From contig NZ_FXBL01000004.1 of assembly GCF_900177325.1 (NCBI RefSeq), forward strand, positions 4,340,001 to 4,404,000: a DNA stretch of 64,000 bases. Reading direction: 5' to 3'. The notes beneath the pieces were generated by a model that saw nothing but the letters and a program-made list of their open reading frames with translations, was not told the DNA's origin and searched no databases. Below, piece by piece: positions 37,228-56,373 of this stretch. This stretch comes from Mesorhizobium australicum (GTDB taxonomy: Bacteria > Pseudomonadota > Alphaproteobacteria > Rhizobiales > Rhizobiaceae). Within the stretch, counting starts at the first letter, position 1; each line of letters begins with the position of its first letter. The position numbers and the translations under genes were made by a program.

Positions 37228-38562
37228 CTACAGGCTGCGATCGCGCAGCGCGAGCGCCTTCTCGCGGAATTTGGCCCGGATCTCCGCCTCGTCGATGCCC
37301 ACAAGCACACGGTCCTCCATGACGATCCGGCCGTCGGCGATGGTGGTGACCACGTCGTCGGCGCGCGCCGAATAGACCAGCGCCGCTGCCTCGTCATAGA
37401 CGGGCAGGCAGTGCAGGCGGTCGAGATCGACGATGATGACGTCGGCCTTCATGCCGGGCGCGAGGATGCCGGTCTCAGGACGGTTCATGGCAATCGCCGA
37501 TCCGGCGGTCGCCATCTCCAGCAGCTCGTTCGTCTTCAGGAATTCGACGTCGTTCGTCTTGTCCTTGTGGATCATGCCGGCGAACTTCATCTCCTGGAAC
37601 ATGTCGAGCGCGTTGTGGCTGGCAGGCCCGTCGGTCGCGAGACCGACCGGAACACCCGCTGCGCGCAAGTCGCGCAGGCGCGCCGTGCCCGAATTGAGCT
37701 TGGCATTGCAGCACGGGCAGTGTCCGATGCGCGTGCCCGTCTCGGCCATGATGGCGATGTCGTCATCGGTGAGCTGCGTGCAGTGGGCGGCAGTGACGTC
37801 GGGGCCCAGGAAGCCGAGGGAATGGACCCATTTGACCGGCGTCGTGCCGTAGGTGTCGGCGACGTAGGCGACTTCCTGCGGCCCTTCGGCGAGGTGGGTA
37901 TGGATTGCAACCTTCTCCGCGTCGGCTACCTCGCGTACCAGCCGGAACATCTCCGCGCCACATGAATAGGGCGCGTGCGGCGAGAGCGCGAGATGAACCC
38001 GATCTCCGCCGGAGCGATGATGCTTCTTTACGAGGTCGCCGAAGGTCTCCAGCGTCTTCCACGACCAGTCCGTGATCGAGGCGTAGATGCCCCGGTCGGC
38101 GAAACCGTAGCCGAGCGTAGCGCGCAGCGGGATACGATGAAGCGCCTCGATCTCAGGCTCGACCGCATAGGCATCGAAATGCTCGTTGAAGGTAGTGATA
38201 CCCGCCTTGGCCATTTCCGCGAGCCCGGCGAGACTTGCCCAGTAGAGCGTGTCCGGGTCGAAATTGCGCTTCAGGCGCCACATCGTCGACAGCCATTCGA
38301 AAAGCTGCACGTCTTCCAGCAGGCCGCGCAGCAGCATGTTGGAGGCAATGTGCGTGTGGCTGTTGACGAAGCCGGGCATCACGACGCGGCCGTTCGCGTC
38401 GATGATCTTCTTCGCCCCGTCGGTCCCGACCGCATCCGCCGTGCCGACCTCCCGGATCGCATTGCCCTTGATGGTTACGACACCACGCGCGATCTTCGCC
38501 GCCCCGCCCATCGGCAGGACGACAGCGTTGACGATGGCGATGTCAGGCCCTTCGACGGTCAT
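37228..38562 (-). CDS. ATZ/TRZ-type amidohydrolase (SAH/MTA-deaminase-like)
   Basis: This metal-dependent deaminase has 444 residues, starting MTVEGPDIAIVNAVVLPMGG. Zinc-site segments are PGFVNSHTHIASNMLLRG, HTHLAEGPQEV, AAHCTQLTD and GLATDGPASHNALD. Relatives deaminate S-adenosylhomocysteine, methylthioadenosine or triazines, so an aminopurine-like substrate is likely. Its ATG overlaps the stop of the Rieske-less oxygenase gene by 4 bp (ATGA), so the two are translated together. The precise substrate is unknown. Confidence 0.87.
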   Translation of the reverse strand: MTVEGPDIAIVNAVVLPMGGAAKIARGVVTIKGNAIREVGTADAVGTDGAKKIIDANGRVVMPGFVNSHTHIASNMLLRGLLEDVQLFEWLSTMWRLKRNFDPDTLYWASLAGLAEMAKAGITTFNEHFDAYAVEPEIEALHRIPLRATLGYGFADRGIYASITDWSWKTLETFGDLVKKHHRSGGDRVHLALSPHAPYSCGAEMFRLVREVADAEKVAIHTHLAEGPQEVAYVADTYGTTPVKWVHSLGFLGPDVTAAHCTQLTDDDIAIMAETGTRIGHCPCCNAKLNSGTARLRDLRAAGVPVGLATDGPASHNALDMFQEMKFAGMIHKDKTNDVEFLKTNELLEMATAGSAIAMNRPETGILAPGMKADVIIVDLDRLHCLPVYDEAAALVYSARADDVVTTIADGRIVMEDRVLVGIDEAEIRAKFREKALALRDRSL

Positions 38563-39419
38563 GCCGCCTGCGCCGTCGTGCCGTAAACAATGCCTTTCTC
38601 CTTCAGCCAACGACGGTAGGCGACGGAGGAAGCGTCGGCGCGCGTCGGGATTTCGGCGCGTGGCTCGAGCGGTAGAAGCACCGGCCGCTGGTTCTCCAGG
38701 ATGATGCGGTCCTGCAGGAAGATGACCTGTTGGAAAGCGACGAGCTCGCTGACGGTCGAAACCTCATCGATGAGAAACATGACCGGATGCGCGCGGCAGC
38801 GGCCGGGGTCGAGCGGCTGGACAAAGAGACAGATCACGTCCCAGCGGTTGGCCGAGTTCGGGCATGTCTTGTAGAGCATTACCGCGAAGGGGTTGGTGAC
38901 CCTGTACATGTATTGGGTCATGATTCCCCCGGTTGCCGAAAGCGCGGCCTGCGGCTGGAAGAACTCGCAATTCGTGGCCCAGACCTCGTCGACGTCGCGG
39001 CGGATCTCGGTCGTGTAGTGCCGCACCTCCGTATGCGGTTCCGCGCCGAGGATGTCGGTGTGGACGAATGGGAAATGCGCCATGTCGAGGAAATTCTCCA
39101 CGACGCGAGGACCGGAGGCCTTGACCGAAATGGCCCCGCAGACGACGAGCCGCCGATCGGGCTCATGCGCTTCGGGGATGGACGGAATGTCGCCGGCCGG
39201 CTCGCCGAGGCTCGCCCAGAGATAGCCGTAACCCGTCTTCGCTCGCACGACGGCGCCCGTGTCGGTCCGGGAAACGGAGATCGCCCCGTCCGCGGCGCGG
39301 GTCACATTCAGGTCGTAGCCGAGAAGTCGGTTGGAGCTTTCGCCGACCGGAACGTCATCCAGCGCATCGATACAGTACCACTGGTCGAGGGCTGCCTTTT
39401 CCGCAGGCTTCATCGTCAT
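38559..39419 (-). CDS. Rieske-less ring-hydroxylating/N-demethylating oxygenase, copy A
   Basis: This is the catalytic domain of a Rieske non-heme-iron oxygenase without the [2Fe-2S] cluster, 286 residues. The mononuclear iron motif D-x2-H-x4-H is intact (D112, H115, H120 in ENFLDMAHFPFVHTDILG). The third acidic ligand is probably D237 in FLQDRIILENQRP. At the N-terminus the flank WYCIDALDD...LLGYDLNVTRAADG runs straight into GYGYLWASLGEPAGDIP, omitting the usual CxH...CxxH segment of about 70 residues. NdmC of caffeine degradation has the same architecture and borrows electrons from a Rieske domain on another protein. The start has GAGGAG seven bases upstream. It is coupled to an amidohydrolase. 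Confidence 0.88.
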   Translation of the reverse strand: MTMKPAEKAALDQWYCIDALDDVPVGESSNRLLGYDLNVTRAADGAISVSRTDTGAVVRAKTGYGYLWASLGEPAGDIPSIPEAHEPDRRLVVCGAISVKASGPRVVENFLDMAHFPFVHTDILGAEPHTEVRHYTTEIRRDVDEVWATNCEFFQPQAALSATGGIMTQYMYRVTNPFAVMLYKTCPNSANRWDVICLFVQPLDPGRCRAHPVMFLIDEVSTVSELVAFQQVIFLQDRIILENQRPVLLPLEPRAEIPTRADASSVAYRRWLKEKGIVYGTTAQAA

Positions 39420-39430
39420 GACGTCGCTCC

Positions 39431-40831
39431 TCATTGCTCGTAGACACGGTCCATGGTCGCCGCGTGCTCGGCGAGCGCGGCTTCCACGTCGAAGGCGCGG
39501 AACAGGCCCTTGCCGATGATCTCGCGGCCGTTGATGTAGGAATAGTCCACCTTGAACGGGCCGCAAAGCACCAGCGCGGCCAATGGATCGCGCTGCGTAC
39601 CGGAGAGGCCGATCTGGTCGCGCTTCACCGCGATGAAGTCCGCGCTCATGCCGGGCGCCAGATAACCGATATCGTCGCGTCCAAGCAGGGCCGCGCCACC
39701 GCGCGTCGCCATCTCAAGCGCCTCACGCGCCGACAATGCGCTCGGCGTGCCGCCGAAGCCGCCCCGGCCGCCGGGCTTCTCGGAAAGGTAGTGGTGCGGC
39801 GCGACGCGCTGGAGCATCAGTGCCAGCCTTGCCTCCATGAACATGTTCGACGTGTCGTTGGAGGCCGAGCCGTCGACGCCGAGCCCCACCTTCACGCCCT
39901 TGTCGAGCATCTCGCGGACCTTGGCGATCCCCTGGCCGCAGCGCATATTGGCCGACGGGCAATGCGCCACGCCCGTGCCCGTCGCAGCGAAACGGTCGAT
40001 CTCGGCGCTGGTCATGAAGATCGAGTGCGCAAACCAGACGTCATTGCCGAGCCAGCCCACGGACTCGGCGAACTCGACCGGCCGCATGCCGTAGATCTCA
40101 TGGCAGTACTTCTCCTCGAACAATTCCTCGGCAAGATGGGAATGCAGGTTCACGCCGGGATGCCGCCGAGCAAGCGCTGCTGCATTGCGCATCAGGTCGG
40201 GCGTCACCGAGAAGGGCGAGCACGGCGCCAGGATGATCCGGCTCATCGAATGGCGGGAATTGTCGTGGTAGGCACCGATCAGCCGCTCGGCGTCCTTGAG
40301 GATGGCATCTTCGTTCTCGACGCAACTGTCCGGCGGCAGGCCGCCTTGGCTCTCGCCGCGGGACATCGCCCCACGCGCGGCGTGGAAACGCAGGCCGAGC
40401 TCGCGCGCAGCCATGATGGTCGCGTCCAGCGTGCAGTTGTTCGGCAGGATATAGAGATGGTCCGAGCTGGTGGTGCAGCCAGAGTGGATCAGCTCGGCCA
40501 TCGCGACGCGCGCCGATATCCGGATCGCGTCGTCGTCCAGCCGGGCCCAGATCGGGTAGAGCGTCTTCAACCAGACGAGCAGCTCGTCGTCCTGCACCAT
40601 GACGCGGGTCAGGTTCTGGTACATGTGGTGATGCGTGTTCACCATGCCCGGCATGACGACATGGCCGGAGAGATCGAGCACCTCGTCCGCCCCGCTCGCC
40701 GCGAACTCCGCCGTCGTGCCGACCGCCTCGATGGCATTGTCGCGCACCAGCATCGCGCCGTCGGCGATCTCGCGGCGCCCGTCATCGAACGTGGCAAGGA
40801 GATCGATGTTCCTGACCAGAAGTGTCGTCAT
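39431..40831 (-). CDS. 8-oxoguanine deaminase
   Basis: This amidohydrolase is predicted to deaminate 8-oxoguanine to urate (466 residues). The zinc-site start PGMVNTHHHMYQNLTR and the specificity region LYPIWARLDDDAIRISARVA, SGCTTSSDHLYILPN and GAMSRGESQGGLPPDS are characteristic of the experimentally defined 8-oxoguanine deaminase group. HSHLAEE, FAHSIFM, HCPSANMR and GVDGSASND complete the active site. It lies 11 bp before the Rieske-less oxygenase gene and 10 bp after a purine-type permease gene. A related 8-substituted purine is possible. Confidence 0.88.
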   Translation of the reverse strand: MTTLLVRNIDLLATFDDGRREIADGAMLVRDNAIEAVGTTAEFAASGADEVLDLSGHVVMPGMVNTHHHMYQNLTRVMVQDDELLVWLKTLYPIWARLDDDAIRISARVAMAELIHSGCTTSSDHLYILPNNCTLDATIMAARELGLRFHAARGAMSRGESQGGLPPDSCVENEDAILKDAERLIGAYHDNSRHSMSRIILAPCSPFSVTPDLMRNAAALARRHPGVNLHSHLAEELFEEKYCHEIYGMRPVEFAESVGWLGNDVWFAHSIFMTSAEIDRFAATGTGVAHCPSANMRCGQGIAKVREMLDKGVKVGLGVDGSASNDTSNMFMEARLALMLQRVAPHHYLSEKPGGRGGFGGTPSALSAREALEMATRGGAALLGRDDIGYLAPGMSADFIAVKRDQIGLSGTQRDPLAALVLCGPFKVDYSYINGREIIGKGLFRAFDVEAALAEHAATMDRVYEQ

Positions 40832-40841
40832 CCCGATCGCC

Positions 40842-41777
40842 TCAGCGCACGTCGCGGAAATAGGGTTCGCCGAGTGCCGCGGGCGCCGCCATCATCCGCC
40901 GCACCTTCTGCCAGGCGAGGACCGGCACGATGATGAGCGCGATGGTGCCGAGATAGGGCAGCATGGAGAGCACGGGAGCGGCGATCGGCCAGTTGCGCGC
41001 CTGGCCGACGAAACCGAGGGAGGTGATGAGGCCGAAGAGAAGCGCGGCGAGCACCGCGTTGAGCGGCCGGTAGCCCGCGAAGATGACGAGCGCCACCGCG
41101 ATCCAGCCGCGGCCGGCCACCACGCCCTCCGACCAGGAGGGCACGAAGGCAAGCGTGAGATAGGCCCCAGCGCCAGCAGCAAGCGCCGCACCGGCGGAGA
41201 CATACCAGAAACGCATCCGCTGCACCGGTATGCCGGCCGCGTCAGCCGCGGCCGGGTTCTCGCCGACCGCCCGCATGTCGAGCCCGTGACGGGTGCGGAA
41301 CATGAGGTAGTGCAGCGCCACCGGCAGGATGATGTAGATCAGGTAGACGAGGATGTTCTGCGTGAACAGCGCGCGGCCGAGGAGCGGGATGTCGCTGAGC
41401 AGCGGGAGCGGGATCGGCGTGAAGGTAGCGGGCGCGGGCATGCCGGAATAGGCCTTGCCGATCGTGGCGGCGAGGCCGGTGCCCATCAGTGTCAGCGCCA
41501 GTCCGCACAGTACCTGGTTGGCCCGGATGTAGACCGTGGCTGCGGCGAAGACCATGCCGGCGAGGAGGCCGACGAGCAGCGCGAGGAAGAAGCCCAGCAT
41601 CGGGCTCGGCACGGCGACCACGGTTGCGATGCCGGTGATCGCGCCGACGGCCATCAGGCCCTCGACGCCGAGATTGACGACGCCGACGCGCTCGGCGAGC
41701 ACCTCGCCAAGGGCGGCAAGCGCCAGCACGCCGCCGGCAAGGATAGAGGTCTGGATCAGGCCGGCGATCAGGTCCAT
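40842..41777 (-). CDS. BMP-type nucleoside ABC importer permease 2
   Basis: This is an inner-membrane permease of 311 residues from the branched-chain-amino-acid/nucleoside permease superfamily. LAALGEVLAERVGVVNLGVE near the N-terminus is the diagnostic block. The coupling region includes GLDMRAVGENPAAADAAGIP near residue 165. It is the fifth gene of the leftward operon and works with the neighbouring permease, a double-domain ATPase and a BMP lipoprotein-like receptor. Confidence 0.92.
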   Translation of the reverse strand: MDLIAGLIQTSILAGGVLALAALGEVLAERVGVVNLGVEGLMAVGAITGIATVVAVPSPMLGFFLALLVGLLAGMVFAAATVYIRANQVLCGLALTLMGTGLAATIGKAYSGMPAPATFTPIPLPLLSDIPLLGRALFTQNILVYLIYIILPVALHYLMFRTRHGLDMRAVGENPAAADAAGIPVQRMRFWYVSAGAALAAGAGAYLTLAFVPSWSEGVVAGRGWIAVALVIFAGYRPLNAVLAALLFGLITSLGFVGQARNWPIAAPVLSMLPYLGTIALIIVPVLAWQKVRRMMAAPAALGEPYFRDVR

Positions 41778-41798: not shown

Positions 41799-42851
41799 TC
41801 AGCCATTCGCCGGCTCCGCGCGGGTGATGCGATAATGCGCCGCCTCGTCGCCGATCGCGGTGAAGAACAGGATCAGGCCGGTGATCGCAAGGACGGTCGA
41901 GACGTTGACGCCCTGGGTCTGCAGGATGATGCCGGAATTCAGGATCACGCCCATCAGCGCGGCGCCGGCCAGCACGCCGAGCGCCGAGCCGCGCGCCAGC
42001 ACCGCGACCATGATGCCGAGATAGCCGAAATTGTTGGAGATGCCGCCCTGCAGGCGGTGGACCGTTCCCGCCACCTCCAGCATCCCGGCGACGCCGGCGA
42101 TCGCGCCCGACAGGAGCATGACCGTGATGAGATGGCGTCGAAACGGCATGCCGGCATATTTCGCAGCACTTGGATTGGAGCCGGCGATGCGGACCTCATA
42201 GCCCCAGCGCGAGTAGTTGAGCGTGGCCGCGACGACGAAGGTCAGAAGAATCGCGATCGGAAAGCCCCAATGCACGATGCCCCACAACTCCGGCACCTCG
42301 TGCGGCAACTTGGCCGTCGTCGCAAGCGCGCGGCCGCTCGGATCGAGCCACGGGCCGGTCGCGACCCAGTAGACCAAAAGCGTCGCGACGAAGTTGAGGA
42401 GCAGCGTCGTGATCAGCTCGCTGACATCGGCATAGGCGCGCGCAAGCGTCGGAACGAGGATCCAGACCAGCCCTCCCAGCGCGCCGGCGACGAACATCAG
42501 CGGCAGGAGCAAAATCGTTGGCCCCGGGACGAATAGCGCGACGCCGGTCGCGGCAAAGGCGCCGGCATAGAATTGCCCCTCCGCGCCGATGTTCCAGGCG
42601 CCGATCTTCAGCGCAACGGCGACGGAGAGGCCAGTCAGGATCAGCGGCGTGACGAGCAGGCCGACATCCTCAAGCCCGAAGCTGTTGCCGAAGGTCGAGC
42701 GCACCACCTGCGTGGCAAGGCCGATGGGGTTGGCACCCGACGCGGCGAGCACGAGGCCGGCCACGACGAGCGCGAGCACGATGGCGATCGCGCGCGCGGC
42801 AAGCGCCACGGCGGGCTGGGCGGAGGGAACGCGCTGGATACGGAACGACAC
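41799..42851 (-). CDS. BMP-type nucleoside ABC importer permease 1
   Basis: This partner permease has 350 residues with about nine hydrophobic helices. The family block ALKIGAWNIGAEGQFYAGAF lies near residue 80 and YEVRIAGSNPSAAKYAGMPF near residue 222. It is spaced 2 bp after the ATPase gene. Confidence 0.92.
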   Translation of the reverse strand: MSFRIQRVPSAQPAVALAARAIAIVLALVVAGLVLAASGANPIGLATQVVRSTFGNSFGLEDVGLLVTPLILTGLSVAVALKIGAWNIGAEGQFYAGAFAATGVALFVPGPTILLLPLMFVAGALGGLVWILVPTLARAYADVSELITTLLLNFVATLLVYWVATGPWLDPSGRALATTAKLPHEVPELWGIVHWGFPIAILLTFVVAATLNYSRWGYEVRIAGSNPSAAKYAGMPFRRHLITVMLLSGAIAGVAGMLEVAGTVHRLQGGISNNFGYLGIMVAVLARGSALGVLAGAALMGVILNSGIILQTQGVNVSTVLAITGLILFFTAIGDEAAHYRITRAEPANG

Positions 42852-42853: not shown

Positions 42854-44452
<1,599 letters not shown>

Positions 44453-44466
44453 CCGGACTGTCGGGA

Positions 44467-45582
44467 TCAGAGGCCGCTGACGCCTTCGATCGACCAATCC
44501 CAGTTGTAGAGTTCCTCTTCGGTCATGCGGTGGCCGGCTGCCACCTTGACGTTGCCCTTGGCGTCCTTGATCTCGCCTTCGAACGGGCTCCAGCCGCCGA
44601 GGATCTTGTCGCGCACGGCATCGGCCTGCTTGGCGACCTCCGGCGGGACCGTCTCGCCCCAGGCGTCGCGGTCGACGCCGGCGCCCATGGCGAGCAGCGT
44701 TTCGCTCGGCGTCCACTTGCCCTCAAGGCGCATCCGCACCTGATCGACATAGTATTTCTTGAAGTCGATGACGATCGAGGAGACGTAGGCCTTCGGTCCA
44801 TAGCGGCGGATATCGGTGTTCCACATCACCGCCTTGGCGCCGCGCTGTTCTGCAACCTGCAGGTAGCCGGCCTCGTCCATGATGCCGAACAGCAGGTCGC
44901 AGCCATTGTCGAGCAGCGCGGTGCCGGCCTGGGTCGCGGCCTGCGGGTCGAACCAGGAGTTGATGACGATCGCCTGCATCGTGGCGTTCGGATTCACCGA
45001 GCGGGCGCCCATCAGGAATGCGTTGGTTCCCGAGTAGACGGACGGCACCGGGAAGGAAGCCACGTAGCCAAGCTTGCCGCTTTTGCTCATCAGGCCGGCG
45101 GCGACCCCGGTCACATAGGTCGGATACCAGTGCTGGAGGTAGTAGGTGCCGAGATTGGAAAGCGGATTGCGGCCGTCGCACTCGTAGAAGGCCACATCCG
45201 GCGAGCGGTTCGCCACGTCATAGAGGAAATCGCCGTAGTTGGAGGTCGCGAACACCATGTTGGCGCCCTCGGACACGAACTGGCGGAAGGTGCGGGTCGC
45301 GTCGGCTGAATAGGGAATGCTCTCGACGAAGAGCGTCTTCAGCTTCGGGAACGCCTCCTGGACCGCCTTCATGCCCTGGTCGTGGCTCCAGGTCCAACCC
45401 TCGTCGGTGACGGGGCCGGTGTGGCCGAAGGCGATGACGGCGTTCTCCTCGGCCACCGCCGGCAGCGGCTCCTGGGCGCGGGCCGGGGTGATCAGGCCGG
45501 TCTTGGGAAGGATCAGCGAAGCGCCCGCGGCGGCGCCGATGTTGAGGAAGCCGCGACGTGTCAGATGCGATAGCTTGAGCAT
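44467..45582 (-). CDS. BMP-family purine/nucleoside-binding protein
   Basis: This periplasmic receptor of the basic-membrane-protein (PnrA-like) family has 371 residues. It has a twin-arginine export signal (TRRGFLNIGAAAGASLIL, residues 8-25). The mature part shows GHTGPVTDEGWTWSHDQGMK, a family N-terminal block in which the aromatic residues stack on nucleobases, and later GCDLLFGIMDEAGYLQVAEQ. AAAGGA precedes the chosen ATG. The family typically binds purine nucleosides. The gene follows the adenosine-deaminase-family gene by 25 bp. Confidence 0.92.
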   Translation of the reverse strand: MLKLSHLTRRGFLNIGAAAGASLILPKTGLITPARAQEPLPAVAEENAVIAFGHTGPVTDEGWTWSHDQGMKAVQEAFPKLKTLFVESIPYSADATRTFRQFVSEGANMVFATSNYGDFLYDVANRSPDVAFYECDGRNPLSNLGTYYLQHWYPTYVTGVAAGLMSKSGKLGYVASFPVPSVYSGTNAFLMGARSVNPNATMQAIVINSWFDPQAATQAGTALLDNGCDLLFGIMDEAGYLQVAEQRGAKAVMWNTDIRRYGPKAYVSSIVIDFKKYYVDQVRMRLEGKWTPSETLLAMGAGVDRDAWGETVPPEVAKQADAVRDKILGGWSPFEGEIKDAKGNVKVAAGHRMTEEELYNWDWSIEGVSGL

Positions 45583-45607
45583 GTTGGTTCCTTTACGTCT
45601 TGTCGTG

Positions 45608-46648
45608 TCAGGCTTGGGAGGTGAGTTCGCTTGCAATGAGCCCGTCGATTTCGGCTGACCATTCGGACATCCACGTCCGCTTGGTCTCTGGATCGAGCCA
45701 GGAGGCCGCGAGGCCGGCGAGCGCGACCTCCTTCAGCCGAGCCGGCGACAGGCCGAAATTCTTGGCGATCAGCGCATATTCGCGATCGAGCGTCGTGCCG
45801 AACATCGGCGGATCGTCGGTGTGGATCGTAACGTTGAGTCCCGCGTCCATCATCCGCCGGATGGCGTGGTCGGGCGATGCAAGGTCGCGCCAGACTGTGG
45901 TGACGAGCGTGGTGCTGGGGCAGCAGGTGAACACGACGTCGAGTTCGCGACAGCGCTCCATCAGGGCCGGATCGTCGACGACGTGGTATCCGTGGTCGAC
46001 CCGCCGCAGGCCGAGTAGATCGACCGTATCGCGGACATAATCCGCCGGGCCATCCTCGCCCGCATGGTTGGTGACGTTGAGCCCCGCCGCCTTGGCGCGC
46101 TCGACAATGCCCAAGAACATGCCGGGCGGATTGGGCCGCTCGTCATAGTCGAAGCCGATGCCGATGATCTCCGCCGGACGTTCGGCGAGCACCATGTCGA
46201 GGAAGCGCTCGCCGCCCTCCGCGCCGAGCGGCTTGGCATGGGCCGGAATGAGCTTGGCGACGAGGCCGTACCGCTCCCTGGCGCGGCGGAAGCCGTCGAG
46301 AATGCCTTCGAGCATGGTCGAATAGGTCACGCCGTGTGCCAGATGCGCATGCGGGCTGAAGAACAGCTCGACATAGCGCGCACCGCCCAGCGCGCAGCGC
46401 TCCAGCGCTTCGAAGGTGATGCGCGAGAAGTCGTCGGCGCTTCGGACCGACGCGCAGACGAGATCATAGACCTTCAGGAAATCGAGCAGGTTCCCGTAGC
46501 TGTAGAGGTCTTCGGTGGGCTTGCCGTCGGGCAGCGCCACGCCATTCTGCGCCGCGAGTTCGGCGAAGGTCGAGGCAGACACGGCACCTTCCAGATGCAG
46601 GTGCAGTTCGGCCTTTGGTATGCGGCGAAAGAAACCCTCTAGCGACAT
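45608..46648 (-). CDS. Adenosine/adenine deaminase family protein
   Basis: This purine deaminase has 346 residues and is the first gene of the nine-gene leftward operon. Zinc ligands and catalytic residues appear in AELHLHLEGA (H16, H18), TNHAGEDGP (catalytic Glu), VDHGYHV and HTDDPPMF. The family includes adenosine deaminase and the related adenine and modified-purine deaminases; HTDDP with GIGFDYDERPNPP does not settle which. Placement ahead of a BMP nucleoside importer favours an imported aminopurine nucleoside or base. Confidence 0.88.
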   Translation of the reverse strand: MSLEGFFRRIPKAELHLHLEGAVSASTFAELAAQNGVALPDGKPTEDLYSYGNLLDFLKVYDLVCASVRSADDFSRITFEALERCALGGARYVELFFSPHAHLAHGVTYSTMLEGILDGFRRARERYGLVAKLIPAHAKPLGAEGGERFLDMVLAERPAEIIGIGFDYDERPNPPGMFLGIVERAKAAGLNVTNHAGEDGPADYVRDTVDLLGLRRVDHGYHVVDDPALMERCRELDVVFTCCPSTTLVTTVWRDLASPDHAIRRMMDAGLNVTIHTDDPPMFGTTLDREYALIAKNFGLSPARLKEVALAGLAASWLDPETKRTWMSEWSAEIDGLIASELTSQA

Positions 46649-47841: not shown

Positions 47842-48473
47842 TGTCCGGTCTCACGCTCTACAACTACGACCTCGACGAGAATTGTTACAAGGTCCGGGTA
47901 GCACTCTCCATGTTCGGGCTCGACTACAAGACGGTCGTCGTCAACGCCTTCCCCGGAAAGGAACATCTGACGCCGCGCTTCCTGGCCATGAACCCGGCCG
48001 GAAGCCTGCCCATCCTCGAAGACGGCGATCTCACCTTGTTCGGCTCGGAAGCCATCCTCGCGCACCTAGCCGCTTCACGGGACGAGGCGCGGACATGGCT
48101 GCCCGCCGGGGGTGCGGATTTCGCCCGCGTCATGCAGTGGCTCACCTTCTCCGCTGGCGAACTCTCCGTCGCTGTCGCAGCGAGAGCGCATGCTTTGCTC
48201 GACGCACCGGGCGACGAGGCCGCCCTTCGCGCCGGAGCGCGCAAGGCCTTGCGCGTCATGGATGATCACATGACGGCACGCGGCTTCGCGGGCGCGGACT
48301 GGTTCGCGACGGGTGGTCCCACTCTTGCCGACATCGCGCTCTTTCCGGCCTTCGCGCTGAGCCGTGATTTCGGCGTCGACCACGACGAATATCCCGCGCT
48401 GCGGCGTTGGGCGCGCCGCTTCCGCACCCTGCCGGGCTTCCTGACGATGCCGGGAATTCCAGACTATCATTGA
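47841..48473 (+). CDS. Glutathione S-transferase-like protein
   Basis: This 210-residue protein has an N-terminal thioredoxin-like GST domain ([20 protein letters not shown], then [16 protein letters not shown] and the SEAI glutathione-contact motif). A helical C-terminal domain follows ([20 protein letters not shown]). GGAGG lies seven bases before the ATG, which overlaps the Rieske stop (TGATG). In the NdmCDE caffeine N7-demethylase a GST-like protein (NdmE) is a structural partner that holds the Rieske-less oxygenase and the Rieske-bearing reductase together. The same role is plausible here. Ordinary glutathione transfer is the alternative. Confidence 0.87.
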
Positions 48474-48523
48474 CCAGCGATTCGTATGCCGCGCGACGTT
48501 CTATGCCGGCCATGGAGTTCAGA

Positions 48524-50323
48524 ATGGGTACACTGACGCGCTTTTCCGTACAGCCTCTCTCGGCCATGACACGCCGGCTCGCGGCAGTCGCCATGGGTTC
48601 GGCCGAGCCTGATCTGGTGATCGGCGGGGCGCGCGTGCTCTCGACCTATTCCGAACGCATCCTGCCCGACCGCGAGGTCTGGATCGCCGGCGGCCGCATC
48701 GCGGCCGTCAAGCCGGCGGGCAGCCACAAGGGCTCGGCGAAGCGCTACGATGCCAAGGGCGGTATCATCGCTCCCGGCCTTGTGGACCCGCACATCCATA
48801 TCGAATCGAGCATGGTCACCGCCTGCGCCTATGCGGAAGCGGCACTCCTGAACGGCACCACGACGATCTTCTGCGACAGCCACGAGATCGGCAACGTCAT
48901 GGACGTCGCCGGGGTCGAGGCGATGCTGGAAGACGCGCGCGAAGCGCCGCTGTCGATCTTCCTCACCGTGCCGAGCACGGTTCCCGCAACCTCGCCGCAA
49001 CTCGAGACGGCCGGCGGCGACCTGACCCCGGACAAGATCGGCGCGCTGTTCGACAAATGGCCAGAGGCGGTGGCACTGGGCGAGAAGATGGACTTCGTGC
49101 AGGTCGCCATGGGCGACGAGCGCAGCCACGCGATCCTCGCCGCGGCGCTGCAACGCGGGCGGCCCGTCTCCGGCCATGTCTACGGCCGCGAATTCGTCTC
49201 CGCCTATGCCGCGTCCGGCGTGACGGACACTCACGAGGCCATAGACCGCGAGATTGCTGACGACATGCTGGAAGCCGGCATCTGGCTCTTCCTGCGCGGC
49301 GGCCCGCCGACGACGCCGTGGCACAGCCTGCCGCAGGCGATCAGGACGATCACCGAACTCGGCGCCTCGCACAAGCGCATCGCCGTCTGCACCGACGACC
49401 GCGATGCCGACGACCTGCTCCTGTTCGGTCTCGACTGGGTGGTGCGCGAGGCGATCAAGGCCGGCATGAGCCCTGAAAAGGCCTGGAGCATGGGCTCGCT
49501 GCACGGCGCGACCCGGTTTGGGGCGGAAGGCGAGATCGGCGGTCTGGGCGGCGGCCGCCGCGCCGACCTCGTGCTGCTCGACGACGCCATGAAGCCGGTC
49601 AACACTTGGTACGGCGGCGAACTGGTGGTCGAGGGCGGGAAGATCACGCCGCTGCTCGATCGCGAACTGTCGACCCGCTATCGCTATCCCGAAGCGGCCT
49701 ATCACACGGTCAAGCTGCCCAAGGAATTGAAGCTGACGCCTGAGCTGCCGACGGAACCCGTGACCGTCAACGCAATAAGGACCGAACTGCCGGGCATCAC
49801 CCTAGGCCACGAGAAGATCCGGCTCGAACCCGCCAACGACTGGCAGAGCCATTTCGACCGCCACGGTCTCTGCTTCGTGACGGTGGTGGAGCGGCACGGC
49901 AAGTCGGACGGCAACGTCGCGCACGGGCTGCTCAGCAACTTTGCGCTCAAACGCGGCGCAGTCGCTTCATCGGTCGGCCACGACAGCCACAACATCATCA
50001 TCGCCGGCGTCAACGAGGCCGACATGCAGGTCGCACTGCGCGCGATCCAGGACACGCAGGGCGGGGTCTGCGTGGTCGTCGACGGCAAGGTAACCGCCAT
50101 GGTCGAATTGCCGATCGCCGGACTTCTCTCCGACAAGCGCGTGACCGAAGTGGCCGAGGAGATGAAGCTGCTGAAGAAGGAATGGGAGGCCGCCGGCTGC
50201 TCGATCCCGTATATGGGCTTCAACCTGATTCCGCTGTCGGTGATCCCGGAAATCCGCATCACCGACAAGGGACTGGTCCTGGTGCCACAGATGGAGATCG
50301 CGCCGTTGTTCGAGGACGCATAG
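48524..50323 (+). CDS. ade: Adenine deaminase
   Basis: This is canonical COG1001 adenine deaminase, converting adenine to hypoxanthine, 599 residues from [20 protein letters not shown]. The active site is typical: [14 protein letters not shown] (H90, H92), [20 protein letters not shown] (H120, E121), [10 protein letters not shown], and the C-terminal [18 protein letters not shown] six bases before the ATG at 48524 decides among three in-frame ATGs. It follows the GST gene by 50 bp and precedes a LysR gene by 50 bp, so it belongs to the rightward Rieske operon. Confidence 0.92.
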
Positions 50324-50373: not shown

Positions 50374-51294
50374 GTGGACCTCTTTCGCTCGGGCCTCGTC
50401 TCGCCGCGCATCCACTACTTCCAGCTCGTGGCGCGATTGGGCTCGGTGCGCCAGACGGCACAGGTGCTGAACGTTGCGCCGTCCTCGATCAGCCGGGTCA
50501 TCAAGGGTCTTGAGGACGAGATCGGAACGCCACTCTTCGAGCGCGTGCGCCAGCGCCTCAAGCTCACCAGCGCTGGCGAGCTGTTGCTCTACCATGCGCG
50601 GCAGAGCAACACCGAGCTGACGCGCGCCTGGTCGGAGATCAACGACCTGCGAGGGCTGAACCGCGGCGCGGTGTCGGTGACCGTGGTGGAGAGTGCCGCG
50701 CGCGGCCTGATGACCGAGGCGCTGAAGACGTTCTGGGCGCGTCATCCGCTGATCACGGTGGACATCCGCGTAGCCGGCTCGCAGCAGGCGTGCGACGCGG
50801 TGGCGGAAGGCGAATGCGACATCGCATTGGCGTTCGACGTGCGTGTGCCGCGCAACGTGCGGCGGATCGCCGCCGCGGCCCTGCCGCTCGGCGTGATCGC
50901 CTCTCCCGAAAGCCGCTTCGCCGGCCGCAAGAACCTGAAACTGTTCGACCTTTCCGGCGAGCAGGTCATTCTGTCGGATGCAAGCCTGGCGCTCGGCCTT
51001 TCGGTGGACGATGCGATCAACCGCTCGATCATCGACCTGACGCGCCGTTCGCGCACCAATTCGATCGCCCTGATGGTCGAGCTCGCGCGCATGAACCTCG
51101 GCGTCGCGCTGCAGACGCGCATCGGGGTCGAGAACGAGCTCGCCGAAGGCAGCCTGATCTTCCTGCCGATCAACGACGCCAAGCTGCCGCCGCGCCGACT
51201 TATGCTGCTGACGCGCACCGAGCGCGAGATGTCCGAGGCGGCATCCGCGTTCGCCACCCTGCTCGCCCGAGCCATCGAGGATCTCGGCGACTAG
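50374..51294 (+). CDS. LysR-family transcriptional regulator
   Basis: This regulator has about 306 residues. The helix-turn-helix includes GSVRQTAQVLNVAPSSISRV, and the effector domain shows FWARHPLITVDIRVAGSQQA and ARMNLGVALQTRIG. No ATG is available in frame near the N-terminus; the best start is GTG at 50374, giving MDLFRSGLVSPRIHYFQLVA, without a clear ribosome-binding site. It closes the acylphosphatase-like/Rieske/GST/ade unit and precedes the third unit at 51386. It probably senses a purine-type compound and could act on the palindromes at 46789 and 51298; this is inference. Confidence 0.86.
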   Translation: MDLFRSGLVSPRIHYFQLVARLGSVRQTAQVLNVAPSSISRVIKGLEDEIGTPLFERVRQRLKLTSAGELLLYHARQSNTELTRAWSEINDLRGLNRGAVSVTVVESAARGLMTEALKTFWARHPLITVDIRVAGSQQACDAVAEGECDIALAFDVRVPRNVRRIAAAALPLGVIASPESRFAGRKNLKLFDLSGEQVILSDASLALGLSVDDAINRSIIDLTRRSRTNSIALMVELARMNLGVALQTRIGVENELAEGSLIFLPINDAKLPPRRLMLLTRTEREMSEAASAFATLLARAIEDLGD

Positions 51295-51297
51295 TTG

Positions 51298-51334: not shown

Positions 51335-51385
51335 CTATCCGGAACAACTTCGGTTTGCGAAATTGCTGTCTCACGGAGACGTCAC

Positions 51386-51886
51386 ATGAAGCAGAGCGCC
51401 GTCGAAGCGGTCATCAGGGGCTTGAAGAAAGCGGGGGTCAGCATCGTCTGCTACCTGCCGGATTCGCTGTTCAAGGAACTCTACCCGGCGCTCGACGCCG
51501 ACCCCGACATCCGCACCATCCGAGTCACCAACGAGGGCGAAGGCGCGGCGATCTGCGGCGGCGTCTTCCTGTCCGGCAAGCGCGCGGCGCTGGTGATGGA
51601 GAACTCCGGCCTGCGCGCATCGGTCGAACCGCTGGCACGCATGGGGCTGGGCGCCGGCATCCCGGTGGTCATGCTGATGAGCTATCGCGGCGAACTCGGC
51701 GAGAACAACTGGTGGGCGATCCCGCACGGCATCACGATGGAGCCGGTGCTGAACGCGCTGCGCATCCCCTATCGGGTCGTGCGTGAGGAAGACCAGATCG
51801 AGCAGTCGATCGTCGACGCCTACAATTGGTCCTACAACGCCTACTACCACTCGGCCATCGCGCTCGGCGGGAGCGTCGTTCGATGA
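51386..51886 (+). CDS. TPP-dependent decarboxylase, alpha (PYR) subunit
   Basis: This 166-residue protein is the pyrimidine-binding domain of a two-subunit thiamine-diphosphate decarboxylase, resembling the sulfopyruvate and phosphonopyruvate decarboxylase alpha subunits. IRVTNEGEGAAICGGVFLSG contains the catalytic Glu. It opens with VIRGLKKAGVSIVCYLPDSL, typical of the family. CGGAG precedes the ATG. The stop overlaps the beta-subunit start by 4 bp. No sulfolactate or phosphonate genes are nearby, so the 2-oxoacid substrate is unknown. Confidence 0.87.
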   Translation: MKQSAVEAVIRGLKKAGVSIVCYLPDSLFKELYPALDADPDIRTIRVTNEGEGAAICGGVFLSGKRAALVMENSGLRASVEPLARMGLGAGIPVVMLMSYRGELGENNWWAIPHGITMEPVLNALRIPYRVVREEDQIEQSIVDAYNWSYNAYYHSAIALGGSVVR

Positions 51887-52491
51887 AACGCTACGACTGC
51901 ATGAAACTCCTCGCCGCGCGTCTCAAGGACGAGTTGGTGATCCTGTCGCTCGGCGCGTCGGTGGACGAATGGTACAATGCCGCCCCGCATATGCGAGAGG
52001 CCAGCCTGTTCCAGCAGCAGCTCGGCTGCGTGACGCCGCAGGCCTTCGGCCTCGCCGCCGGCCTGCCGCACCGCCGCATCGTCTCGCTGGATACCGATGG
52101 CGGCATGATGTTCAACCTCGGCATCCTCGCCACGCTCGGCAACGAGCAGCCTAAGAACCTCTTCGTCGTCGTCTGGGACAACGAATGCTACCAGTCGATC
52201 GGTGGCCCGCCAACGCACACCGCCTTCGGACGCGTCGACATCGCCGCGATTGCGCGCGGCGCGGGCGTCGAGAACGCCTACACCGCGCGCACGCTGGAGG
52301 AATTCGAAGCCCATTGCGAGGCTGGCCTCAAGGCAGACGTTCCCTATGTCGTCGTCGCCAAGGTGGCGGGCACCGTCCAGCCCGACATCAAGCGCAAGCA
52401 CTCGGACGGCCGCGAGGACAAATACATCTTCGTGCGCCATGTCGAGGCGACGGAAGGGATCGTCATCATGGGGCCGAGCGAGCACAATTGA
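51883..52491 (+). CDS. TPP-dependent decarboxylase, beta (PP) subunit
   Basis: This diphosphate-binding partner has 202 residues. SLDTDGGMMFNLGILATLGN is the TPP/Mg-binding motif (GDGx~24N type), and VVWDNECYQSIGGPPTH is the following conserved loop. The N-terminus MKRYDCMKLLAARLKDELVI matches the beta subunits of sulfopyruvate-type decarboxylases. Eight bases separate its stop from the GMC oxidoreductase gene. The aldehyde produced could be oxidised by the aldehyde dehydrogenase at the end of the operon. Confidence 0.87.
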   Translation: MKRYDCMKLLAARLKDELVILSLGASVDEWYNAAPHMREASLFQQQLGCVTPQAFGLAAGLPHRRIVSLDTDGGMMFNLGILATLGNEQPKNLFVVVWDNECYQSIGGPPTHTAFGRVDIAAIARGAGVENAYTARTLEEFEAHCEAGLKADVPYVVVAKVAGTVQPDIKRKHSDGREDKYIFVRHVEATEGIVIMGPSEHN

Positions 52492-52498
52492 CGGTTTG

Positions 52499-54064
52499 AT
52501 GTCCTCCGAAGCCCCCACCCTCCCCGTCCGCGCCCTGAAAGGCGGCTACGACTATGTCGTGATCGGCTCGGGCTCGGGCGGTTGCGCGGTGACGCGGCGG
52601 CTGGTCGACGCCGGCGCGGACGTGCTGCTGATCGAGGCAGGCCCGCCGGGGATCGGCGTCAATGAGATCGACGACCCGGCAAAATGGGTTCCACTCGGAC
52701 GCAGCGCTTATGACTGGGGCTACGACTATGCGCCGACGCCCCGCGTCAATGGCCGCACCATCGGCATCCCGCGCGGCAAGGTGCTGGGCGGCTCTACCTC
52801 TACCAATGCGATGATGTGGTATCGTGGCCATCCGCTCGATTACGACGCATGGGAAAAGGCCGGCGCCAAGGGGTGGAGCTTCGCCGACTGCCTGCCCTAT
52901 TTCCGCCGCTGCGAAGATTGGGAAGGAGGAGCGAGCGAATGGCGCGGCGCGGGCGGCCCGCTGCGCATCGAACGTGCGCCCGACACCCATCCGGTCGCCC
53001 AGGCGCTGATCGACGGCGCCGCCTCGCTCGGCATCCCGGTGATCGACGATCCCAACGGCCCCGACAACGAAGGTGCTGCGCGCGCCAACTTCAACATATC
53101 TGGCGGCAGGCGCTGGAGTTCTGCGCGCGGCTATCTTCAGCCCATCTTCGACCGGCCGAACCTGACCATCCTGACCGGCTCTCTCGCCGTCGGACTGGTG
53201 CTCGACAACGGTCGCAGCGTCGCGGTGCGTCATCTCGTCGACGGAGCCGTCCGCGAGACCCGCGCGCACCAGAAGATCATCCTCGCGCTCGGCGCGATCG
53301 ACACGCCGCGGCTGCTGATGCTGTCCGGTATCGGCGATCCCACAGAGTTGGCGCGGCTGGATATAGCCGTCGCGCATGCGCTGCCGGGCGTCGGCCGGAA
53401 CCTGCAGGACCATCCGCTGGCGCAGGCCTGCGTCCTTCGGGCGAAACACCCGCTCGGACCCGTGACCGGCAATGGCGGCGGCTCGATGGTGAACTGGAAG
53501 TCTCGTGCCGGCCTGCCGCAGGCCGACATCCATGCGTTTCCCGTGCAGGGCAACAGCGCGGAATCGGCCATACGCGCACGCTACGACACGTCGGGCGATG
53601 TATTCTCCTTCGGCGCCGGCCTCATGCGCTCGAAAAGTGTCGGCTATCTCAGGCTTCTGGAGGCCAAGCCCGGCGGCTCGCTGGAGATCCAGCCCAACTT
53701 CCTTGCCGAGCCCGACGACGTCGACGCGATGATCACCGCGGTCGAGATGACAATCGAGATGGCCGCGGCGGATGCCAATGCCGATCTCTTCGGCGGCTTC
53801 GCTGCGCCCGACCGCCGGCTGACCCGCAGTGAGACCGTGGCTTTCCTGCGCGACGCCTGCTCGACCTTCTTCCACCTCAGCGGCACCTGCCGCATGGGCG
53901 AGGACGACGAAGCCGTGGTCGACAGCCGGCTGAAGGTGCATGGCCTGGAAGGACTGATGGTCGCGGACGCCTCGGTTATGCCCATCATCCCCTCATGTAA
54001 CACCCACGCGCCCACGACCATGATCGGCGAGCGCGCGGCGGATTTCGCGATGGGGTTGGTATGA
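52499..54064 (+). CDS. GMC-family FAD-dependent oxidoreductase
   Basis: This choline-dehydrogenase-like flavoenzyme has 521 residues. The FAD-binding motif VIGSGSGGCAVTRRL is at residues ~21-35. The GMC signature region IPRGKVLGGSTSTNAMMWYR follows, and the C-terminal catalytic segments are FFHLSGTCRMG and SCNTHAPTTMIGERA. It would oxidise an alcohol to an aldehyde. Family members act on choline, glucose, polyethylene glycol and others, so the substrate is open. It is the third gene of the decarboxylase-to-ALDH unit. Confidence 0.9.
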   Translation: MSSEAPTLPVRALKGGYDYVVIGSGSGGCAVTRRLVDAGADVLLIEAGPPGIGVNEIDDPAKWVPLGRSAYDWGYDYAPTPRVNGRTIGIPRGKVLGGSTSTNAMMWYRGHPLDYDAWEKAGAKGWSFADCLPYFRRCEDWEGGASEWRGAGGPLRIERAPDTHPVAQALIDGAASLGIPVIDDPNGPDNEGAARANFNISGGRRWSSARGYLQPIFDRPNLTILTGSLAVGLVLDNGRSVAVRHLVDGAVRETRAHQKIILALGAIDTPRLLMLSGIGDPTELARLDIAVAHALPGVGRNLQDHPLAQACVLRAKHPLGPVTGNGGGSMVNWKSRAGLPQADIHAFPVQGNSAESAIRARYDTSGDVFSFGAGLMRSKSVGYLRLLEAKPGGSLEIQPNFLAEPDDVDAMITAVEMTIEMAAADANADLFGGFAAPDRRLTRSETVAFLRDACSTFFHLSGTCRMGEDDEAVVDSRLKVHGLEGLMVADASVMPIIPSCNTHAPTTMIGERAADFAMGLV

Positions 54065-54107
54065 CAATTGCCTTTCCAATACGCATGTGCAAGCAGGAGA
54101 ATGGCCG

Positions 54108-55490
54108 ATGACGAATGGCGCACTTATCCTCGCCGCCGACGCTCTCCTGACCATGGATACGGCAAACACGACGCTGGCGGACGGGGCGGTCTTGATAGAC
54201 GGCGGACGCATCGCCGCGGTCGGCACGCTGGCAGAACTGAGCGCGGCGAATCCTGGGACACCGGTCAAGAAGATCGCCAATGCCGTATTGATGCCGGGGC
54301 TGGTCAACGCGCACGCCCATTCGGGCTTCCTGCGCGGCACGGCCGAGCATCTGCCGGTCTGGGACTGGCTGACGCTGCACATCAACCCGATGCACCGCAT
54401 GCTGGAGCCGCATGAGGCGGAGGCGGCCTCGTGGCTTTGCTATGCCGAGTCCGTTCTGGGCGGCACGACGACGGTCGTCGACATGTGGCGTTTCATGGAC
54501 GGTAGCGCCAAGGCAGCAGAGGCGGTCGGCAACCGGCTGGTCGCCGTTCCCTATGTCGGGGAGCATCCGGACTACGATTACTTCGACACACTCGACATGA
54601 ACGAGGCGCTGATCGAAACCTGGCATCGCAAGGCGGACGGCAGGGTTAATGTCTGGGTTGGGCTGGAGCATCTGTTCTACGCCGACGAGGCCGGCCAGCG
54701 GCGCGCCATCGAGCTGGCGAAGAAGTACGGCACCGGCTTCCACACCCATTGCAGCGAGGCCGAAATCGAGCTGGCCGAGTTCCAGAAACGCTATGGCAAG
54801 CGCCCGATGTTCGCGCTGGAGGAACTGGGCTTCTTCGAGAGCCCGCGCACCATGATCGCCCACGGCGTCTGGCTTGATTCCGCCGAGATCGAGCTGATCG
54901 CGAAATATCCCGTCTCGGTCGCGCACAATCCCGTCTCGAACATGAAGCTCGCCAGCGGCATCGCGCGCGTCGGCGAAATGCTCGCGGCGGGCGTGCCCGT
55001 CGGCATCGGCACCGACGGCGAGAAGGAGAACAACAATTTCGACATGTTCGAGGAGATGAAGGTCGCCTCGCTTGTCGGCAAACTGAAGGATCTCGACGCC
55101 GCCGCGATGGACAGCTGGGACGTGCTGAGGATGGCGACGATCACCGGCGCGAAGGCGATCGGACTGGACCATGAGATCGGATCGATCGAGGCAGGCAAGC
55201 GCGCGGACATCATCGCCGTGCGCACCGACACACCGCGCATGACGCCGTTCTTCGCCGACGGGCCGTATTTCAACCTGCACCACAACCTCGTCCACGCGGT
55301 GCGCGGGGGCGACGTGATGCTGACCATGGTGGAGGGGAACATCCTGGTCGAGGACGGCCAGTTAAAAACCGCCGACCTGAAGGACATCATCGCCGAAATC
55401 CATCGTGTCGCGCCCGGCCTTTTCGCCCGCAGAGCCGCGTGGCTGGCGCAGAATGCGGAAGGCACTATGCAGTGGACGAAGACATCGTGA
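54108..55490 (+). CDS. ATZ/TRZ-type amidohydrolase, second copy
   Basis: This metal-dependent deaminase or hydrolase has 460 residues. Zinc-site blocks are PGLVNAHAHSGFLRG, FHTHCSEAEIE, IAHGVWLDSAE, VAHNPVSNMKL and GIGTDGEKENNNFDMFEEMK. AGGAG lies 8 bp before the ATG. It is followed 16 bp later by Rieske-less oxygenase copy B, echoing the amidohydrolase-oxygenase pairing at 37228-39419. An aminopurine or other aminated N-heterocycle is a likely substrate. Confidence 0.87.
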   Translation: MTNGALILAADALLTMDTANTTLADGAVLIDGGRIAAVGTLAELSAANPGTPVKKIANAVLMPGLVNAHAHSGFLRGTAEHLPVWDWLTLHINPMHRMLEPHEAEAASWLCYAESVLGGTTTVVDMWRFMDGSAKAAEAVGNRLVAVPYVGEHPDYDYFDTLDMNEALIETWHRKADGRVNVWVGLEHLFYADEAGQRRAIELAKKYGTGFHTHCSEAEIELAEFQKRYGKRPMFALEELGFFESPRTMIAHGVWLDSAEIELIAKYPVSVAHNPVSNMKLASGIARVGEMLAAGVPVGIGTDGEKENNNFDMFEEMKVASLVGKLKDLDAAAMDSWDVLRMATITGAKAIGLDHEIGSIEAGKRADIIAVRTDTPRMTPFFADGPYFNLHHNLVHAVRGGDVMLTMVEGNILVEDGQLKTADLKDIIAEIHRVAPGLFARRAAWLAQNAEGTMQWTKTS

Positions 55491-55506
55491 CACGGAGACC
55501 CCGATC

Positions 55507-56373
55507 ATGAAAACGACGGACAGGGCTGCGCTGGATGATTGGTACGCGGTCGAGACCTCCACCGATCTGACCACCATGCCGCTGACGACGCGGCTGCTCG
55601 GCCAGGACATCGAGCTTCGGCGCGACGGGGAAGGCAGGCCGGTCGTGCGAGAGATCCTGGATGACGGCGCGCGCGGGCCGGCGCTGCCCGCGCAGGAGCG
55701 CTATGGCTGCATCTGGACGACGCTCGGCCATCCCAACCGGGACATATTCGACATTGCCGAGGCGCTAGAGACCGACCGCCGCTTCGTACCTTGCGGTTGG
55801 GTGAAGATGCGCGCATCGGGCCTGCGCGTGGTCGAGAATTTCCTCGACATGGCGCATTTCCCCTTCGTCCACACCGACATTCTCGGCTCCGAGCCGCACA
55901 CCGAAGTGCCGCAGTACCTGAGCGAGATCCGCCGCGACGTGGACGAGGTGTGGGCGACCAACTGCACCTTCTTCCAGCCGCGCATCGCCGCCACCGAGTC
56001 GAGCGGCGACTTCGTCCACCTGACCTACCGGGTTCCGAGCCCCTTCGTGGTCATGCTCTACCGGGTTTGCCCGACTGCGCCCGATAGGCTCGACGCTATC
56101 GCGCTCTTCATCCAGCCGATGGAGGAAGGCCTCTGCCGGGCGCAGCCGGTGATGTATCTGGTCGACAAGACTTCCACGCACACGGCGCTGCTGAATTTCG
56201 AGCAGGTGATCTTCCTGCAGGACCGCATCATCGTGGAAAACCAGCGCCCGCTGCTTTTGCCGCTCGAGCCGCGTGCGGAAATCCCCACGCGGGCCGATTC
56301 CTCCTCGATCGCCTACAGGCGCTGGCTGAAGGAAAAGGGCATCCGCTTTGGCACGACGATGGGAGCGGCATGA
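55507..56373 (+). CDS. Rieske-less oxygenase catalytic subunit, copy B
   Basis: This 288-residue paralogue of the protein at 38559 has the same missing Rieske cluster. The iron site is intact: D114, H117 and H122 in ENFLDMAHFPFVHTDILG, with D239 in FLQDRIIVENQRP as the probable third ligand. The N-terminal flank WYAVETSTDLTTMPLTTRLL joins directly to RYGCIWTTLGHPN without any CxH or CxxH. The C-terminal LEPRAEIPTRADSSSIAYRR is nearly identical to copy A. GGAG precedes the ATG, and the stop overlaps the molybdenum hydroxylase start by 4 bp. Electrons presumably come from the Rieske protein at 47122. Confidence 0.88.
   Translation: MKTTDRAALDDWYAVETSTDLTTMPLTTRLLGQDIELRRDGEGRPVVREILDDGARGPALPAQERYGCIWTTLGHPNRDIFDIAEALETDRRFVPCGWVKMRASGLRVVENFLDMAHFPFVHTDILGSEPHTEVPQYLSEIRRDVDEVWATNCTFFQPRIAATESSGDFVHLTYRVPSPFVVMLYRVCPTAPDRLDAIALFIQPMEEGLCRAQPVMYLVDKTSTHTALLNFEQVIFLQDRIIVENQRPLLLPLEPRAEIPTRADSSSIAYRRWLKEKGIRFGTTMGAA

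Follow-up and report, generated by a model that had tools for sequence, protein, structure and literature searches.

The alpha subunit of each Rieske oxygenase is composed of both metal domains, according to a 2025 review (PMC12445004). A known departure from this plan is NdmCDE, the 7-methylxanthine N7-demethylase of Pseudomonas putida CBB5. The review PMC4408171 describes NdmC as lacking the Rieske cluster, NdmD as carrying an extra cluster, and NdmE as required. It also counts 18 more organisms with ndmCDE homologues whose function is unknown, Sinorhizobium and Mesorhizobium being prominent among them, so relatives in rhizobia were already known. The structure of the complex was stated to be unsolved in 2026 (PMC13237722). 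Here we describe a gene set from a 64,000-nucleotide stretch of Mesorhizobium australicum (the window; genome G000, contig C4, NZ_FXBL01000004.1, positions 4340001-4404000). It encodes two Rieske-less oxygenase subunits (OxyA and OxyB), a free-standing Rieske chain (Rsk) and a protein resembling glutathione S-transferase (GST). Judged by homology, this system is an unfused variant of the known NdmCDE kind. No description of the free-standing Rieske form was found in the literature, a weak negative since subscription journals and preprints lay mostly outside the search, nor does one appear in the accessible text of PMC4408171.

OxyA and OxyB share 58.7% identity across 288 aligned positions. 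Above the Pfam cut-offs OxyB matches VanA_C only and OxyA matches VanA_C and KshA_C, all of them catalytic domains, and neither has a Rieske-domain match in Pfam. When aligned with full-length oxygenases, both chains are without the stretch that holds the two cluster-binding loops. The iron site of OxyA comprises D112-x2-H115-x4-H120 plus D237, and the four residues lie within columns that are at least 98% conserved among 129 oxygenases (the aberrant L136 omitted). Homology to known alpha subunits runs through the catalytic domain: OxyB matches SxtDIOX at 2.2e-22 and NdmA at 6.5e-8, and the OxyA-family profile matches the full-length oxygenase set at 9.6e-24 over residues 12-278. In a PDB search OxyB residues 56-283 align with SxtDIOX residues 103-333 (4e-21 for that piece); the pairing of OxyB residues 1-44 with SxtDIOX 1-45 scores only 2.2 bits and is not significant by itself. 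The first-pass annotation of the window, made from the sequence alone, had recognized these two paralogous subunits with an iron motif and no cluster, and the domain matches, motifs and identity bear it out. It gave no strand for OxyA, which lies on the minus strand.

Rsk is the complement of these chains. Its only Pfam match is PF00355 (Rieske), and its cluster ligands are C47-x-H49...C66-x2-H69, in agreement with the earlier description of a separate Rieske gene with four ligands and no iron motif. In the window together with 130 fetched loci, CxH...CxxH occurs in 0/143 oxygenase frames and DxxHxxxxH in 143/143, against 97/97 and 0/97 in the Rsk frames, so the split of the motifs is not due to chance. 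Some of these loci share a genome, and the distinct counts (130 oxygenases, 93 Rsk) are safer. No chain among OxyA, OxyB and Rsk carries both metal motifs as a canonical alpha subunit does. Residues ~4-115 of Rsk make up an alpha-subunit-type Rieske domain and residues ~125-235 a small second domain. Rsk matches the Rieske domains of the alpha subunits SxtDIOX (1.4e-23) and NdmA (2.5e-17) far more closely than the best Rieske ferredoxin (3.1e-5), and is thus not nearer to the stand-alone ferredoxins.

The last base of the Rsk stop codon (TGA, 47839-47841) is also the first base of the GST start codon. Locus counts given here and below refer to the best 80 of 454 loci in named genomes. By an approximate calculation on 78 of these, Rsk and GST overlap by 1 base in 42, 4 bases in 15, 7 bases in 17 and 5 or 8 bases in 2. 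The overlap is thus 1-8 bases in 76/78 junctions, the remaining two being a 29-base gap and an unreliable value of -353. The overlap, which the first-pass annotation described for the window as translational coupling, recurs among the relatives. In a quick test that was not used, most of 101 GST sequences had no match to the glutathione-site pattern.

Residues 7-88 of OxyA are predicted to fold as a Rieske shell without its cluster; profile comparison of this N-terminal shell is suggestive (4e-4 and 1e-4, compared with 0.3 and 0.08 for the reversed control). In the predicted model, and only there, the second domain of Rsk looks like a catalytic domain without its iron. Profile comparison gave no proof from sequence that this domain descends from a catalytic domain, scoring no better than the reversed control (rskC/roC E 0.46 versus 0.82 reversed; rskC/oxyC 0.086 versus 0.011 reversed). 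The whole-length Rsk profile match ends at residue 116, giving no sequence support for the C-terminal domain as catalytic. In genome G175 (L136, 8783-9472) the oxygenase match starts at OxyA residue 68, about 11 bases past the end of the Rsk frame, and even the cluster-less shell seems to be gone.

The relationship to NdmCDE was examined with a plasmid cluster of P. putida MT178 (L088) as reference. Its NdmB matches PDB 6icl (1e-235) and the last 87 residues of its NdmD match 6icm_D (4.7e-47), both entries being strain CBB5 proteins; NdmC and NdmE were assigned by position beside NdmB and NdmD. OxyA is 46% identical to NdmC over 278 aa, the GST-like protein is 41% identical to NdmE over 205 aa, and Rsk is 35% identical to the N-terminus of NdmD over 155 aa. 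Identity of OxyA to the NdmA and NdmB types is only 24-28%. The NdmCDE analogy drawn by the first-pass annotation was therefore right and can be put more strongly, since all three parts are homologues. The fusion of Rieske domain and reductase is absent, Rsk being a stand-alone chain of 239 aa. Two other plasmids of P. putida carry related clusters. In pPp1290 of strain 1290 (L084, 12871-14626) an NdmD-like gene is annotated as three pieces, with a GST gene adjoining and hpxO in the cluster. On the plasmid of strain KF715 (L083, 2742-14401) an NdmCDE-type set is clustered with hpxO, a gene for a full-length oxygenase and genes for two 2-oxoglutarate/iron oxygenases.

A FastTree phylogeny was built from 130 oxygenases and five full-length relatives, four of NdmA/NdmB type and the fifth encoded beside hpxO. 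The full-length relatives form no group of their own, and the Rieske-less oxygenases, OxyA and NdmC included, form one clade (support 0.918). Within this clade, 102 oxygenases (0.844) form the sister of a fused set of 28 that includes NdmC (0.744). The set of 102 consists of 89 with a free Rsk in the stretch examined and 13 whose stretch excludes Rsk. The tree of Rieske modules shows the same split, with 93 free (0.862) and 17 fused (0.72), and the sister topology gives no order of fusion and fission. Among the NdmD-class frames, the cluster motif is present in 9/10 long and 8/9 partial ones; 2/9 partial frames, which run from stop to stop, also match the iron pattern.

The two components are distributed together. 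We surveyed 151 genomes of the window's family (completeness floor 95%; E<=1e-40 for Oxy and E<=1e-20 for Rsk) and found Oxy in 32 and Rsk in the same 32, each in 24 of 99 genera, with neither in the other 119 at these cut-offs. A class-wide survey found the Oxy set in 1/114 genomes, the window's own. Every Rsk place in the family survey has an Oxy place within 9 kb on the same contig. The 33 Rsk places divide into 22 free-standing (frame length 216-356 aa) and 11 in NdmD-length frames (at least 595 aa), and genome G258 has one of each form. Among the 80 loci, Oxy, Rsk and GST occur as a triad in 78, and in the two misses (L058 and L072) Oxy is near a contig end; Rsk is divergent from Oxy in 78/78 triad loci. 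In most of the records seen the oxygenase is annotated merely as a ring-hydroxylating dioxygenase subunit. Rhizobia are among the named relatives, and copies are present in S. meliloti 1021/2011.

Two Oxy genes accompany a single Rsk in 17/32 genomes, and G258 carries three Oxy with two Rsk. The layout OxyA - Rsk - OxyB is found in eight genomes, the window included. G121 and G259 have the OxyA type alone, and in G258 OxyB occurs with Rsk and GST but OxyA is missing at the cut-off. Because some genomes carry OxyA without OxyB and one carries OxyB without OxyA, neither catalytic chain seems to need the other, which supports the earlier wording of "alternative" subunits. If the moderate tree supports hold, a separate duplication in the fused lineage placed two Oxy beside one NdmD. 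We take N282 and F286 of NdmA to be specificity residues. At these columns the OxyA type has Q/F in 82/82, OxyB has E/F in 8/8 and the Rhizobium leguminosarum type has Q/F in 11/11; the fused set has Q/F in 17 and M/F in 11, NdmC having Q/F. The residue differences at the N282 column suggest that the chains may act on different substrates.

The genes around the system point to purines. At the thresholds used, a BMP protein is a neighbor in 59 of the 80 loci, guanine deaminase in 52 and adenine deaminase in 51, and an 8-oxoguanine deaminase of at least 60% identity in 29. At least one purine or BMP-transporter gene occurs in the examined flank of 64/80 loci. The isolated Rieske chain, the paired catalytic subunits and the purine context noted in the window are real and conserved across relatives. 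In G175 a single locus (L136) brings Rsk, Oxy and GST together with a separate reductase, a BMP transporter and an frmA that matches the frmA of the ndm cluster at 60%, and in G258 (L134) fghA (47%) adjoins the fused set. These formaldehyde genes beside two relatives point to demethylation. Homologues of frmA (62% and 61%) lie elsewhere in the window's own genome. An OHCU decarboxylase gene is located ~28 kb before the window; a Pfam search of the same genome gave no uricase match. In L052, L056 and L061 a 318-aa protein on the GST side was read as a D-2-hydroxyacid dehydrogenase.

We consider it probable that the window encodes a split NdmC-family oxygenase in which Rsk feeds either catalytic chain in trans, the GST-like protein holds the assembly and modified purines are N-dealkylated. 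This reading is favored by the homology to NdmC, the NdmD N-terminus and NdmE, the complementary motifs, the matching genome distribution, the triad linkage and the conserved iron site. It is also favored by the closeness of Rsk to alpha-subunit Rieske domains, the NdmC-like Q/F pair of OxyA and the purine context of most loci. OxyA or OxyB would provide the substrate pocket and the mononuclear iron. Rsk would provide the [2Fe-2S] cluster, passing electrons in trans to the iron via the conserved Asp of DxxHxxxxH (D112 in OxyA, which is presumably the bridging Asp, as in known oxygenases). Co-produced with Rsk, the GST-like protein would keep Rsk and a catalytic chain together, the role proposed for NdmE. 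The two catalytic chains could be interchangeable plug-ins for one Rsk-GST core, differing in purine recognition. The BMP transporter would import modified purines, from which the enzyme probably strips small groups such as methyl, oxidative N-demethylation (or dealkylation) being the most likely reaction. The product would be deaminated by the guanine, 8-oxoguanine or adenine deaminases and then oxidized by the xanthine-dehydrogenase-like enzyme.

A broader proposal is more tentative. Possibly a single alpha subunit was duplicated, and OxyA/OxyB and Rsk are its reciprocal remnants, each with both domain outlines and one metal center. With GST they would form a modular oxygenase whose single Rieske-GST core is common to interchangeable catalytic chains (Q, E or M at one site). 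The pairing would have arisen at least twice, in the free-Rieske and fused lineages, and might serve to salvage nucleobases that are damaged or modified, 7-methylguanine alongside 8-oxoguanine being one example.

Several observations weigh against the split N-dealkylase. No NdmD-like reductase was found in the window or the 80 loci, and the window's own genome has only three remote FNR-type matches (29-31%) to the NdmD-type reductase. With names taken from sequence reading, one lies beside a glycine-betaine-monooxygenase-like gene, one in a fused pyridoxamine-oxidase-like protein and one in a MOSC-containing protein; one of the three adjoins a full-length Rieske oxygenase. The G175 reductase, used as query, has no match in this genome at 1e-20. 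It groups beside the NdmD reductase domains with modest support (0.763), and its nearest models (NADH oxidoreductase, flavohemoprotein and GbcB) are all below cut-offs. Rsk may draw its electrons from a general ferredoxin or reductase. The OxyA structure model failed in the catalytic domain (predicted local distance difference test score 43.6), the 13-sequence alignment being too shallow, and only about residues 1-80 are usable. The tree supports (0.918, 0.844, 0.744) are moderate and the outgroups are five full-length proteins only. No frmA or fghA is present in the window, and the 80 loci show three weak frmA matches only (25-27%). There is no purine or BMP gene in the examined flank of 16/80 loci (L052, L053, L055-L057, L061, L065-L068, L071, L072, L074, L075, L078 and L080), three of them (L057, L071 and L072) being short contigs. 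Finally, the nearest full-length relative by BLAST among those compared is not NdmA-like; it is the protein encoded beside hpxO (31%, 1.7e-25, versus 4.5e-16 for the best NdmA-like protein), its HpxD-like nature being read from position.

This last relative also speaks for the same split enzyme acting as a ring hydroxylase, a reading that we regard as unlikely. OxyA would hydroxylate guanine or another purine at C8 as a molybdenum-free, HpxD-like enzyme, and the deaminase would turn 8-oxoguanine into urate. It would account for the 8-oxoguanine deaminase directly beside OxyA and in 29 of the loci. The best PDB matches of OxyB, SxtDIOX and SxtT, are hydroxylases, and weaker plasmid matches carry the name HpxD. 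However, the closest family is NdmC, with the same Q/F pair, frmA and fghA adjoin two relatives, and the OxyB run already has a xanthine-dehydrogenase-like enzyme.

Less likely still, and in our view doubtful, is the removal by the same split enzyme of bulkier N6 substituents from adenine derivatives, for instance plant cytokinins, with OxyB (Glu) serving amino-purines and the GMC and aldehyde dehydrogenases handling the side chain. The adenine deaminase in the flanks of 51 loci and the Q-to-E change in all eight OxyB agree with it, as does a GMC enzyme in L129-L131, L133, L140 and L141, accompanied by an aldehyde dehydrogenase in five of the six (absent from L130). However, N-demethylation requires fewer assumptions, and a literature search on this link gave nothing relevant. 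That Rsk is an ordinary Rieske ferredoxin for other enzymes, with OxyA and OxyB inactive or paired with another oxygenase, would fit the want of a reductase beside Rsk in the window's lineage but is very improbable: the Rieske domain of Rsk is alpha-subunit-like, the 119 family genomes that lack Oxy yield no Rsk at the cut-offs applied, the Oxy iron site is conserved, and the alphaproteobacterial loci read contain no frame classified as a full-length alpha subunit. The full-length partner elsewhere, which the first-pass annotation had named as counting against a split enzyme, is for the last of these reasons and the shared 32/151 genomes less likely, and only that.

The window's genes are listed in Table 1. 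Two runs face each other: the minus-strand run spans 46648 down to 35855, from adenosine deaminase to guanine deaminase, and the plus-strand run spans 47122 to 61518, from Rsk to an aldehyde dehydrogenase. The sulfopyruvate-decarboxylase-like pair is 88-98% identical to its copies in L128, L130, L131, L133, L140 and L141, its neighbors being ~60-89% identical. Two ATP-binding cassette (ABC) transporters resembling spermidine/putrescine (Pot) systems precede the purine island (25402-29263 and 30516-34848), and three open reading frames at 29571-32642 matched no family in the scan.

Table 1. Genes of the two facing runs in the window (window coordinates)
Feature	Position	Strand	Basis
Guanine deaminase	35855..37225	-	TIGR02967 above cut-off
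AmhA, amidohydrolase of TRZ/ATZ deaminase group	37228..38532 (start codon provisional)	-	No listed equivalog above cut-off
OxyA, NdmC-family oxygenase subunit with mononuclear iron and no Rieske cluster, 286 aa	38559..39419	-	Pfam, motifs, NdmC alignment
8-oxoguanine deaminase, directly upstream of OxyA	39431..40831	-	NF006055, 615.6 bits (cut-off 532)
ABC transporter permease 1	40842..41777	-	BPD_transp_2
ABC transporter permease 2	41799..42851	-	Position and sequence reading, no family scan
ABC transporter ATPase	42854..44458	-	ABC_tran, two stretches
BMP/PnrA-type ABC transporter substrate-binding protein	44467..45591	-	–
Adenosine deaminase, first gene of minus-strand purine run	45608..46648	-	TIGR01430 above cut-off
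Rsk, free-standing Rieske [2Fe-2S] chain, 239 aa	47122..47841	+	PF00355, cluster motif
GST-like protein (NdmE homologue, 41%)	47841..48473	+	Start codon overlaps Rsk stop codon
Adenine deaminase-like	48494..50323 (start provisional)	+	TIGR01178, 354 bits, below cut-off 472.5
LysR-type regulator	50398..51294	+	–
Enzyme pair resembling sulfopyruvate decarboxylase alpha and beta	51386..52491	+	Below cut-offs
GMC-type oxidoreductase, choline-dehydrogenase-like	52502..54064	+	Below cut-off
AmhB, amidohydrolase of TRZ/ATZ deaminase group, directly upstream of OxyB	54105..55490	+	–
OxyB, second Rieske-less oxygenase subunit, 288 aa	55507..56373	+	Pfam, tree (own clade, support 1.0)
Molybdenum hydroxylase nearest xanthine dehydrogenase PucC+PucD (fused) and PucE	56370..60019 (overlaps OxyB stop)	+	Below cut-offs
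Aldehyde dehydrogenase	60019..61518 (open frame; start provisional)	+	–

If the split N-dealkylase is correct, a naturally unfused pair would allow each metal center to be prepared, reduced and mutated on its own before the two are combined. The passage of electrons and the gating between both centers would be directly testable with the 239-aa cluster chain. A plausible function would also be given to a gene set that is present in about a fifth of the sampled family genomes and has so far been annotated mostly by its dioxygenase-subunit label.

The system shares with NdmCDE a Rieske-less oxygenase, a displaced Rieske module, a GST-like partner and a purine setting. It differs in that Rsk is encoded by its own gene without a reductase fusion, no dedicated reductase is nearby, there are two catalytic chains, and a BMP transporter and deaminases take the place of the methylxanthine set. 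The N1- and N3-demethylases NdmA and NdmB share catalytic-domain homology and, probably, purine substrates with OxyA and OxyB, but each of them is a full-length alpha subunit that carries a Rieske cluster itself. The HpxD-type xanthine hydroxylase and the SxtT/GxtA hydroxylases are the nearest full-length relatives (the protein beside hpxO by BLAST, SxtDIOX/SxtT in the PDB); unlike OxyA and OxyB they are full-length alpha subunits that carry out hydroxylation, and we know of no GST partner for either type. Rsk is like the Rieske ferredoxins of the BphA3, CarAc and NdoA type in being a small separate [2Fe-2S] protein. Unlike them it pairs a Rieske domain of the alpha-subunit type with an additional domain at the C-terminus, and the family survey found it only where a Rieske-less oxygenase is also present.

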